DNA of 35,074 bases from Bacillota bacterium (GTDB lineage Bacteria > Sysuimicrobiota > Sysuimicrobiia > Sysuimicrobiales > Segetimicrobiaceae), in NCBI GenBank assembly GCA_021324295.1, contig JAJPJJ010000021.1, forward strand, positions 1-35,074, read 5' to 3'. Below the pieces are notes generated by a model that worked only from the letters and a program-made list of their open reading frames with translations, was not told the origin of the DNA and made no database searches. This document shows, in pieces, positions 21,390 through 24,505 of the stretch. Every line of letters begins with the position of its first letter. Within the stretch, counting starts at the first letter, position 1. The position numbers and the translations under genes were made by a program.

Positions 21390-22750
21390 TCCCCCGATAC
21401 ACCTCCCCCGAGATGGCGGCGCTGTGGAGCGCCGAGACGAAGTTCGCGACGTGGCTGGAGATCGAGCTGCTCGCGGCGGAGGCGCAGGCCCGCCTCGGGC
21501 GGATCCCCGAGGAGGCGGCCCGCCGGCTGCGCGAGCGCGCGCGGGTCCCAAGCGTCGCCCGGATCGAGGAGCTCGAAGAGCGCGAGACGCGGCACGATGT
21601 CGTGGCGTTCCTCCGCGTCGTCGGGGAGACGGTGGGGGAGGACGCCCGCTACCTGCACCTCGGGCTGGGCTCCGCCGACGTGGTGGATACGGCGCTGTCC
21701 GTGCTGATGGTCCGGGCCGCGGACCTCATCGCCGCGCAGCTCGAGCGCGTCCGCCGGGCGCTGGCGTCCCTCGCCCGGACGCACCGGGCCACGGTGATGG
21801 CGGGCCGGACGCACGGGGTGCACGCCGAGCCGATCACCTTCGGCCTGAAGGCGGCGCTCTGGTACGCGGAGGCCGGCCGGGCCGTGGAGCGCCTGCGGCG
21901 CGCCCGCGAGGTGATCCGCGTGGGCAAGCTCTCCGGCGAGGTCGGCACCTTTGCACACACCCCGCCGGAGGTCGAGGCGTACGTCTGCGAGCGCCTGGGC
22001 CTGCAGCCGGCGCCGATCTCCTCGCAGATCCTGCAGCGCGACCGGCACGCCGAGTACCTCGCCCACTGCGCCGTGGTCGCCGGCACGCTCGAGAAGATCG
22101 CCACGGAGATCCGCACCCTGCAGCGCACCGAGGTGCGCGAGGTCGAGGAGCCGTTCGCGGAGCGGCAGACCGGGTCGTCCGCGATGCCGCACAAGCGCAA
22201 CCCGATCATCTCGGAGCGGGTCGCGGGCCTCGCGCGCGTCGTGCGCGGGTACGCCGTGGCGGCGCTCGAGGACATGGCGCTCTGGGGCGAGCGCGACCTC
22301 ACCCAATCCTCGGTGGAGCGCGTCATCGTCCCGGACGCGACGACGGTGCTGGAGTACATGGCCCGCAAGCTGGCGGGCGTCCTCGAGGGGTTGCGGGTGT
22401 ACCCCGAGCAGATGCGGGCCAACCTGGAGCGCACGGGCGGCCTCGTCTACTCGCACCGGGTGCTGCTCGCGCTCATCGAGAAGGGGCTGAGCCGCGAGGA
22501 GGCCTACCGCACCGTCCAATCGGCCGCGATGGCCGCGTGGGAGGGCCGGGGGCGCTTCCGCGACCTCCTGCGGGGAGCGGGGGTCCTCAGCGACGCGGAG
22601 GTGGACGCCTGCTTCGACCCGCGGCCGTCCCTGCGCCATGTCGATGAGATCTTCCGCCGCGTCGGCCTGGATGGGGCGGCGGCTGCGGAGACGCCGTCAC
22701 GTGAGGAGCACAGCGCCCGCGCGGGCGCCCGGGAGGAGGGGCAGCGATGA
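21386..22750 (+). CDS. purB: Adenylosuccinate lyase
   Basis: Cleaves SAICAR in IMP synthesis and adenylosuccinate in AMP synthesis, so it links purC and purA functions in this operon. The fumarase-superfamily signature GSSAMPHKRNP is at residues 263-273 with the catalytic Ser; GRTHGVHAEPITFGLK, RDRHAEYLAHCAV and LWGERDLTQSSVER are also present. Start GTG 21386 overlaps the purA stop (GTGA). Length 454 aa, with a ~25-residue Glu/Ala-rich tail. Its stop overlaps the purC ATG. Confidence 0.97.
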   Translation: MIPRYTSPEMAALWSAETKFATWLEIELLAAEAQARLGRIPEEAARRLRERARVPSVARIEELEERETRHDVVAFLRVVGETVGEDARYLHLGLGSADVVDTALSVLMVRAADLIAAQLERVRRALASLARTHRATVMAGRTHGVHAEPITFGLKAALWYAEAGRAVERLRRAREVIRVGKLSGEVGTFAHTPPEVEAYVCERLGLQPAPISSQILQRDRHAEYLAHCAVVAGTLEKIATEIRTLQRTEVREVEEPFAERQTGSSAMPHKRNPIISERVAGLARVVRGYAVAALEDMALWGERDLTQSSVERVIVPDATTVLEYMARKLAGVLEGLRVYPEQMRANLERTGGLVYSHRVLLALIEKGLSREEAYRTVQSAAMAAWEGRGRFRDLLRGAGVLSDAEVDACFDPRPSLRHVDEIFRRVGLDGAAAAETPSREEHSARAGAREEGQR

Positions 22751-23733
22751 GCGATGTGGTGAGAGCGGATGGGTCGGTGCGAGACGACCTGCGGTCCGGC
22801 GCCGTCATGGAGACCCACCTCGATGCCCCGCTGTTCGCGCGCGGCAAGGTGCGCGACGTCTACGATCTCGGCGACCGCCTGCTGCTCGTGGCGACGGACC
22901 GCCTCTCCGCGTTCGACTGCGTGCTGCCAACCGGCATCCCGGACCGCGGGCGGGTGCTGACCGGGCTCTCGGCGTTCTGGTTCGACCGCCTGGCCGGGAT
23001 CGTCCGGACACACTACATCACGACAGACCCGGATCGGTGTCCGCCGTCGCTCGGCGAGCCCGTGCGCGCGCTCGCCGGCCGGGCGATGCTCGTGCGGAAG
23101 TGCCGGCGGATCGATTTCGAGTGCGTCGTCCGCGGGTACCTGGCCGGGTCGGCCTGGCAGGAGTACCGGGCCACCGGGCGGGCCGGCGGCAGGGCGCTGC
23201 CGGCGGGGCTGCGGCCCGGCAGCCGGCTCCCCGAGCCGATCTTCACGCCCGCGACCAAGGCCACGAGCGGCCACGACGAGACGATCACGCCCGCCGAGAT
23301 GGCGCGCCGGATCGGCGCGCCCCTCGCCCGGCGCCTCGAGGAGGCGAGCCTGGCGCTGTACGGCGCGGCTGCGGCCACCGCGGAGCGGTGTGGGTTCATC
23401 CTCGTGGACACGAAGTTCGAGTTCGGGCTGGAGGGAGACGAGCTCGTGCTGATCGACGAGGCCGTAACCCCGGACTCGTCGCGGTTCTGGGACGCGGCCG
23501 CCTACGCGGCCACCGGCTCCACGGAGAGCTTCGACAAGCAGGTGGTGCGCGACTACCTCGAGCGCATCGGGTGGGACAAGGTCCCGCCGGCCCCCGCGCT
23601 GCCCTCCGAGGTCGTCGAGGCCACACGACAGCGGTACCTGGAGGTGTACCGTCGCCTCGTGGGACATCCCCTGGCGGCGCCGGCGGCGGGCGCCGGTCGC
23701 TCCGCGCGCGCGGACGGACCGGGGACCCACTGA
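22747..23733 (+). CDS. purC: Phosphoribosylaminoimidazole-succinocarboxamide synthase
   Basis: ATP-dependent joining of CAIR and aspartate to SAICAR. It shows FARGKVRDVYDLGDRLLLVATDRLSAFD, KCRRIDFECVVRGYLAGSAWQEY, FTPATKATSGHDE, LVDTKFEFGL and DEAVTPDSSRFWD. Length 328 aa matches the long actinobacterial/fungal type. ATG 22747 overlaps the purB stop (ATGA); an internal ATG at 22807 would start closer to the conserved domain. The last ~20 residues are Ala/Gly-rich. A 401-nt repeat-filled gap follows. Confidence 0.96.
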   Translation: MSDVVRADGSVRDDLRSGAVMETHLDAPLFARGKVRDVYDLGDRLLLVATDRLSAFDCVLPTGIPDRGRVLTGLSAFWFDRLAGIVRTHYITTDPDRCPPSLGEPVRALAGRAMLVRKCRRIDFECVVRGYLAGSAWQEYRATGRAGGRALPAGLRPGSRLPEPIFTPATKATSGHDETITPAEMARRIGAPLARRLEEASLALYGAAAATAERCGFILVDTKFEFGLEGDELVLIDEAVTPDSSRFWDAAAYAATGSTESFDKQVVRDYLERIGWDKVPPAPALPSEVVEATRQRYLEVYRRLVGHPLAAPAAGAGRSARADGPGTH

Positions 23734-23748
23734 CCGCGGCGTGGAGGG

Positions 23749-24114
23749 ATGGCAGTGGACGCAAAGCGCGTTGTCCCGGCCGCTGGGGGCCCGAGCCTGT
23801 CGCCGGGTCTCGCGACGTGGAACGCCGGCAGGGGAAGTGAAGCATCGTGCTCCGTGCGCTGGGGGCCCGGGCCTGTCGCTGGGTCTCGCGACGTGGAACG
23901 CCGGCAGGGGAAGTGAAGGATCGTGCCCCATGCGATGGGGGCCCGGGCCTTTAGACCCCGGCACCGCACGTGGGCAAACGGCAGGGGACGCGAGGCGTGC
24001 TGCCCCGGCCGCTGGGGGCCCGGGCCGTTAGACCCCGGGCACCGCACGTGGGCAAACGGCAGGGGACGCGAGGCGCGCTGCCCCGGCCGCTGGGGGCCCG
24101 GGCCTTTAGACTAA
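23749..24114 (+). repeat. Five tandem ~77-bp repeats between purC and purS
   Basis: The core GCTGGGGGCCC (GATGGGGGCCC in unit 3) recurs at 23782, 23858, 23934, 24011 and 24089, a period of 76, 76, 77 and 78 nt. Each full unit opens with GGCAGGGG and ends near ACGTGG(G)..AAC. Units 1-2 share CTGTCGC(T/C)GGGTCTCGCGACGTGG after the core; units 3-5 carry (C/G)TTTAGAC or CGTTAGAC and, in 3-4, CCGCACGTGGGCAAAC. Unit 4 can fold GCCCGGG against CCCGGGC. There is no unique spacer, so this is not CRISPR. The 401-nt purC-purS gap contains nothing else recognised except the purS ribosome-binding site. Confidence 0.9.
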
Positions 24115-24134
24115 CTGCGAGAAGAGGACAGCGC

Positions 24135-24377
24135 GTGGCGGTGCGGACGGTCCGGATCATCGTGACGCTCAAGCCGGGCGTCCTCGACGCGCCCGGGCAG
24201 GCGATCCAGAAGGGCCTCGACGCGCTCGGCCACCGAGGCGTGGAGAAGGTACGCGCCGGCCGGTACTTCGAGCTCGAGGTGCGGGACGCGGACGATCTCG
24301 AGCAGCGTGTCCGCGAGATGTGCGAGGGGTTCCTCGCCAACACGCTCATCGAGGAGTACCGCTACGAGATCGTGTGA
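24135..24377 (+). CDS. purS: FGAM synthetase subunit PurS
   Basis: Small 80-aa subunit that joins PurQ and PurL in formylglycinamidine ribonucleotide synthetase. It reads VRIIVTLKPGVLDAPGQAI, LGHRGVEKVRAGRYFEL and a C-terminal ANTLIEEYRYEI, typical of PurS. GTG 24135 is chosen because GAAGAGGA lies just upstream; the frame remains open back into the tandem repeats, which is not coding-like. A 128-nt gap without a gene separates it from purQ. Confidence 0.95.
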   Translation: MAVRTVRIIVTLKPGVLDAPGQAIQKGLDALGHRGVEKVRAGRYFELEVRDADDLEQRVREMCEGFLANTLIEEYRYEIV

Positions 24378-24505
24378 GCGGCGCTTGCCGCCGGGCGCGG
24401 AGGGTGCGAGGGGCTGTCCTGCGCGGAGCTTCGACGTAGCGGCTCTTCCTGGCGGGCGCGCGTGACGCCCGAGGTGCCGGGCCGACGACGACGGAGGAGG
24501 CGGGC

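Follow-up and report, generated by a model that had tools for sequence, protein, structure and literature searches.

The gap between purC and purS in the 35,074-nt window (i.e., the whole stretch of DNA that was analyzed) is occupied by a tandem array that is one member of a new, lineage-restricted family of interspersed repeats, of which about 140-150 copies of a ~78-nt unit lie at about 65 places in the source genome. We consider it likely that the repeat was inserted at purC-purS and then multiplied there, mostly at the end facing the gene, as a passive element; the array is most likely tolerated and not regulatory.

Five head-to-tail units, as proposed in the original prediction, were recovered in the purC-purS gap, and their spacings were 76, 76, 77, and 78 nt in the repeat search; TRF reported two overlapping arrays (23781-23950, period 76, score 298; and 23936-24111, period 78, score 331). 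The array had been placed at 23749-24114 and is indeed present there, but it begins slightly earlier: its 5' edge touches the purC stop codon (23731-23733), and it extends over 23733-24111 (23733-24110 in the family profile), in a purC-purS gap spanning 23734-24134. The end of unit 5 lies 24 nt from the GTG start codon of purS (24135). A division into two subtypes (units 1-2 and 3-5) had also been proposed, and holds roughly, although the identities between adjacent units (0.69, 0.93, 0.72, and 0.98) yield the groups {1}, {2,3}, and {4,5}, with the subtype switch falling inside unit 3. The features of this region are as follows.

22747-23733, plus strand: purC, the upstream gene (open reading frame list; ends compared with relatives).
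23733-23801, plus strand: unit 1, the most diverged, 69% identical to unit 2 (profile match 41.6 bits, E 5e-10).
23804-23877, plus strand: unit 2, 93% identical to unit 3 (profile match 61.5 bits).
23880-23955, plus strand: unit 3, its 3' end already in the later TTTAGACCCC form (profile match 65.1 bits).
23958-24032, plus strand: unit 4, 98% identical to unit 5 (profile match 65.1 bits).
24036-24110, plus strand: unit 5, gene-proximal and nearest to the family consensus (profile match 68.2 bits).
24092-24104, plus strand: the nearly invariant block GGGGGCCCGGGCC, unit 5 copy, found in nearly every unit of the family (alignment; mismatch rates per column in distant units).
24123-24128, plus strand: likely Shine-Dalgarno sequence of purS, AGAGGA, intact 3' of the array (sequence; other arrays are laid out alike).
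24135-24377, plus strand: purS, the downstream gene (Pfam PurS, E 1.8e-26).

Since the array lies within a co-directional operon, it is probably transcribed. The neighboring operon junctions are generally short, as had been noted, with the exception of purS-purQ (24378-24505), which at 128 nt is longer than in the one relative read. This second gap was considered as a further repeat and rejected, as its sequence is single copy in the genome.

With the array as BLAST query, the source genome (129 contigs, 4.02 Mb in total) returned 47 matches, and a sequence profile found about 150 (E up to 1), so that an array unique to the purine operon could be rejected. More specifically, nhmmer identified 140 units in 68 arrays or single copies on stretches fetched from this genome, counts that are lower bounds because several arrays are cut by contig ends. 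Unit spacings were exactly 78 nt in 39 of 64 cases, and all others but one were 75-80 nt. The rough family consensus is CGGGTATCGCGACGTGGGCAAACGGCAGTGGACGTGAAGCGTGCTGCCCCGGCCGATGGGGGCCCGGGCCTTTAGACC, and two subtypes differ by one base before the GGGGGCCCGGGCC block.

In contrast to its abundance in its own genome, no credible copy of the unit was detected in the 45 relatives searched (best stray match, E 5e-4), a set with one genome per species in which the source genome is the only one of its genus. Four junctions that carry arrays here are shorter in relatives. The purC-purS distance is 0-80 nt in members of the same family, in which the two genes often overlap; likewise, sufB-sufD measures 461 nt here versus 100-243 nt in the same family, argC-argJ 427 nt versus 17-88 nt in relatives, and hisF-hisIE 202 nt versus -65 to 17 nt in relatives. 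Because these junctions are short and the repeat is absent in relatives, the arrays are best read as insertions in the source lineage. The C termini of PurC (relative to members of the same family) and HisF extend past the stop codon of most relatives, as would be expected if the insert had displaced the stop codon.

We found the arrays to be oriented and positioned relative to the gene that follows (Pfam was used to check part of the surrounding genes, which were called from codon usage and are approximate). The downstream gene was on the same strand in 46 of the 63 arrays for which one was called (p 0.0003), and a same-strand start codon lay 8-26 nt past the 3' end of 23/63 arrays, as against 1/64 for the mirror case at the 5' end (Fisher p 1e-7), usually with a Shine-Dalgarno sequence between array and start codon. 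Both co-directional (31 arrays) and divergent (12 arrays) settings occur, so that it is the start codon, and not an upstream stop codon, to which the position of the array is tied. At about a quarter of sites the neighboring downstream gene is on the other strand, an example of opposite-strand placement being the array next to an HlyD-family gene (L017). Directly 3' of one array (L023, minus strand, at ~1205-1311) lies TTGACA-17-TATAAT, which has the textbook form of a sigma-70 promoter although the genome is 73% GC; thus, at least this array precedes its own promoter. The downstream genes named by Pfam encode PurS, SufBD, ArgJ, a cupin, an Fe-S protein, phosphoglycerate mutase, short-chain dehydrogenases, class II aldolase, solute-binding proteins, enoyl-CoA hydratase, a luciferase-like monooxygenase, a nucleotidyl transferase, HisIE, phosphomethylpyrimidine kinase, and others, functions that are mixed and form no evident regulon. 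As arrays precede sufD, argJ, hisIE, and genes for phosphoglycerate mutase, short-chain dehydrogenases, solute-binding proteins, and others, nothing about the family is purine-specific, which removes a purine-specific reading of the purC-purS array.

The similarity of units within arrays is polar. Among the 17 arrays that have three or more units, identity averaged 93% in the gene-proximal pair versus 71% in the far 5' pair, and 15 of these arrays showed this direction (p 0.002); subtype B lay 5' of subtype A in 10 of 13 mixed arrays. The greater likeness of gene-proximal pairs suggests that arrays gain units at the ribosome-binding-site end and that units farther upstream decay. The polarity could alternatively have arisen if the last units were subject to selection or conversion. 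This pattern, observed in one genome, supports two earlier proposals, namely, that the purC-purS array grew by duplication followed by divergence and that it is a simple variable repeat.

About twenty further genome matches belong to a second element of ~76 nt (L150:1440-1543, i.e., G000 C89:39381-39456, and about 20 others, also at L151, L154, and L156), most copies of which are predicted to form two strong hairpins, CCCCACGAAT...ATTCGTGGGG followed by CCCGGGCCTTCC...GGAAGG...CCGGG. In several cases this element lies directly 3' of a stop codon. The 78-nt units adjoin or lie within such hairpin modules at about ten loci, the right-hand module is missing at most gene-proximal arrays, and the two families have the block GGGGGCCC(C)GGGCCTT in common. 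No mobilizing enzyme for the 78-nt repeat was identified in the genome. Its only Y1 transposase gene (L186, G000 C8:9891-10241) is of the IS200/IS605 type and sits beside a TnpB-like open reading frame, and the 3.3-kb locus contains no 78-nt unit. A RAYT/REP origin was rejected, given that this single Y1 gene looks like that of an ordinary IS200/IS605 element and has no repeat nearby.

Among known systems, the best reading is that the repeat is MIRU-like in position and BOX-like in modularity. MIRUs are units of 40-100 bp found at 41 places in M. tuberculosis H37Rv (PMC2734929) and are inserted at gene starts (PMC12548453). The present repeat, compared by description, resembles them in its tandem units of tens of base pairs (~78 nt) scattered over about 65 loci and in its insertion at gene starts in gene orientation, with empty junctions in relatives. 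The expansion of purC-purS also parallels that of the M. tuberculosis rnc-fpg1 junction, which measures 358 bp versus 6-54 bp in species without the repeat (PMC2734929). The coupled open reading frame of MIRUs, which overlaps the downstream start by 4 nt (-4), is mostly lacking here, and membership fails for this reason: an open reading frame of at least 25 codons ending at the downstream start was present in 7 of 26 gene-proximal arrays and lacking in 19 of 26, as well as in the purC-purS array. A further difference is the marked growth polarity toward the gene, which is a feature of the 78-nt arrays. In BOX elements (boxA-boxBn-boxC), which are lineage restricted, modules at the ends accompany a tandemly repeated middle unit whose number varies (PMC3049150). 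The lineage restriction is shared here, and the organization has a partial parallel in hairpin modules that stand beside or around n units at some loci and without units at others, but are absent at most gene-proximal arrays. Unlike BOX, the 78-nt arrays are GC-rich, end at a Shine-Dalgarno sequence, and mostly lack a right-hand module when gene-proximal, and no matching insertion sequence was found. REP/BIME/REPIN elements are likewise intergenic, genome-wide, and GC-rich, and the 78-nt unit contains a palindromic block, GGCCCGGGCC; REPs are, in contrast, palindromes of 20-40 bp in alternating orientation, not 78-nt head-to-tail units, no RAYT (TnpA-REP) was found here, and the transposase findings above preclude membership in REP/RAYT.

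Among unit pairs with <72% identity, there are hardly any differences in the GGGGGCCCGGGCC columns; differences affect CGGC in 10% of comparisons and most of the unit in 30-55%. Part of this contrast may stem from detection bias, because units were found by similarity. The hairpin originally proposed for unit 4 proved weak: GGCCCGGGCC occurs in nearly every unit, and folding z-scores for 15 units ranged from -1.4 to +1.9 (0.3 for the whole array), no better than for shuffled sequence, so stable hairpins in the units were rejected. Consistently, RNAalifold detected no compensatory pair among the units, an Rfam search gave no match at E up to 5, and no promoter or intrinsic terminator was found in the purC-purS array. 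A nearly invariant block lacking a fold signal indicates that the constraint acts on sequence and not on fold, which would fit a protein-binding or a recombination/mobility signal.

These results bear on several other explanations of the arrays. A structured RNA in tandem, either riboswitch-like or an attenuator, might have been suggested by the 5'-leader position and the tandem units, and by eye GGGCAAAC...GGACG superficially resembles the c-di-GMP-I aptamer; the aptamer was rejected for want of an Rfam match and of covariation, and with these results, the folding scores, and the mixed functions of the downstream genes, the structured-RNA explanation is largely refuted and we give it almost no credence. 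Nor is there support for the earlier proposal that the array, as an mRNA stability or attenuation element, adjusts purS-H levels relative to those of purD-C: no structure signal and no terminator were found, and arrays also precede many nonpurine genes. A protein-coding nature of the unit, as a present or former repeat of 26 residues, is also very improbable. A length of 78 = 3 × 26, a pN/pS-type ratio of 0.51 for subtype B in one frame with more variable third positions, and some arrays that lack stop codons and share the frame of the downstream ATG would agree with coding, an example of the latter being L019:1275-1674 (minus strand), an open 26-residue repeat (...TAWELKRPASVRWGPGPVTRVSRRG...) in frame with the ATG of an aldolase gene. 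Subtype A, which is shifted by one base, has in contrast a ratio of 1.32 in the frame of subtype B, and 24 of the 64 spacings, the 76, 76, and 77 nt at purC-purS among them, cannot be divided by 3; with no convincing Pfam match, the frame broken, and subtype A unconstrained, a coding repeat was rejected. An assembly artefact could be suspected, as the genome consists of 129 contigs, is 96% complete and 4.7% contaminated, and has several arrays at contig ends, and exact unit counts may have been collapsed in assembly. This explanation is nevertheless barely tenable, given that the purC-purS units differ from one another and lie inside a contig with unique flanks, and that members of the family occur in different flanking sequence at about 65 places.

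A regulatory role merits closer consideration. Arrays could serve as 5'-leader platforms: with a host protein bound to the invariant GC block, or to the RNA made from it, the number of units would adjust how strongly the downstream gene is transcribed or translated, including purS-purQ-purL relative to purC. The registration at 8-26 nt from start codons together with the orientation bias, the near-zero variation of GGGGGCCCGGGCC while the rest of the unit varies, and the higher mRNA levels that accompany longer repeats upstream of M. tuberculosis fpg1 (PMC2734929) would all accord with such platforms. The original suggestion of a protein-binding array may likewise hold, because the 13-nt block is nearly invariant, and this block could mean a host function. 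Nonetheless, no coherent regulon emerges from the downstream genes, which lie on the opposite strand at about a quarter of sites, neither a fold nor a promoter or terminator was found, and the repeat is absent from the 45 relatives; we regard the platform explanation as unlikely. By analogy with M. tuberculosis fpg1, regulation by unit number is possible; a specific form of it, a lineage-specific tuning in which units are added at the ribosome-binding-site end, a host factor binds GGGGGCCCGGGCC, and unit number sets the expression of dozens of unrelated genes including purS, appears decidedly unlikely.

The explanation that we prefer remains insertion followed by duplication in place. According to this explanation, a ~78-nt unit would have entered intergenic and operon junctions, including the otherwise near-contiguous purC-purS junction, mostly in an orientation in which the downstream Shine-Dalgarno sequence and start codon survive. 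It may have spread as a mobile or recombinational unit, with the GGGGGCCCGGGCC block among its signals, and would then have been duplicated in place, chiefly at the gene-side end, with older upstream units decaying. Since the downstream gene can still initiate at its own site, an insert just 5' of the Shine-Dalgarno sequence would be tolerated, and copies would have been kept because such an insert presumably does little harm. The main effect on purS would be the loss of tight purC-purS coupling, not a specific regulation. MIRU-like repeats, which serve as typing markers in mycobacteria, thus appear to exist in similar form in a lineage that looks unrelated, where two features are added: the spacing to the following start codon is fixed, and arrays seem to grow at the end nearest the gene. 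In addition, a normally near-contiguous operon junction can bear an insert of ~400 nt.

An exact tandem-motif scan gave no match in IMG/VR and no mycobacterial match in GTDB r220. In the latter it returned four stretches, two from Streptomyces, one from Micromonospora, and one from a deltaproteobacterium, of which only the deltaproteobacterial one was read. This stretch (620-960 of L062; JAISFP010000165.1, Deltaproteobacteria MAG) carries a different intergenic tandem array of shorter period that also contains GGGGGCCCGGGCC and is probably convergent.
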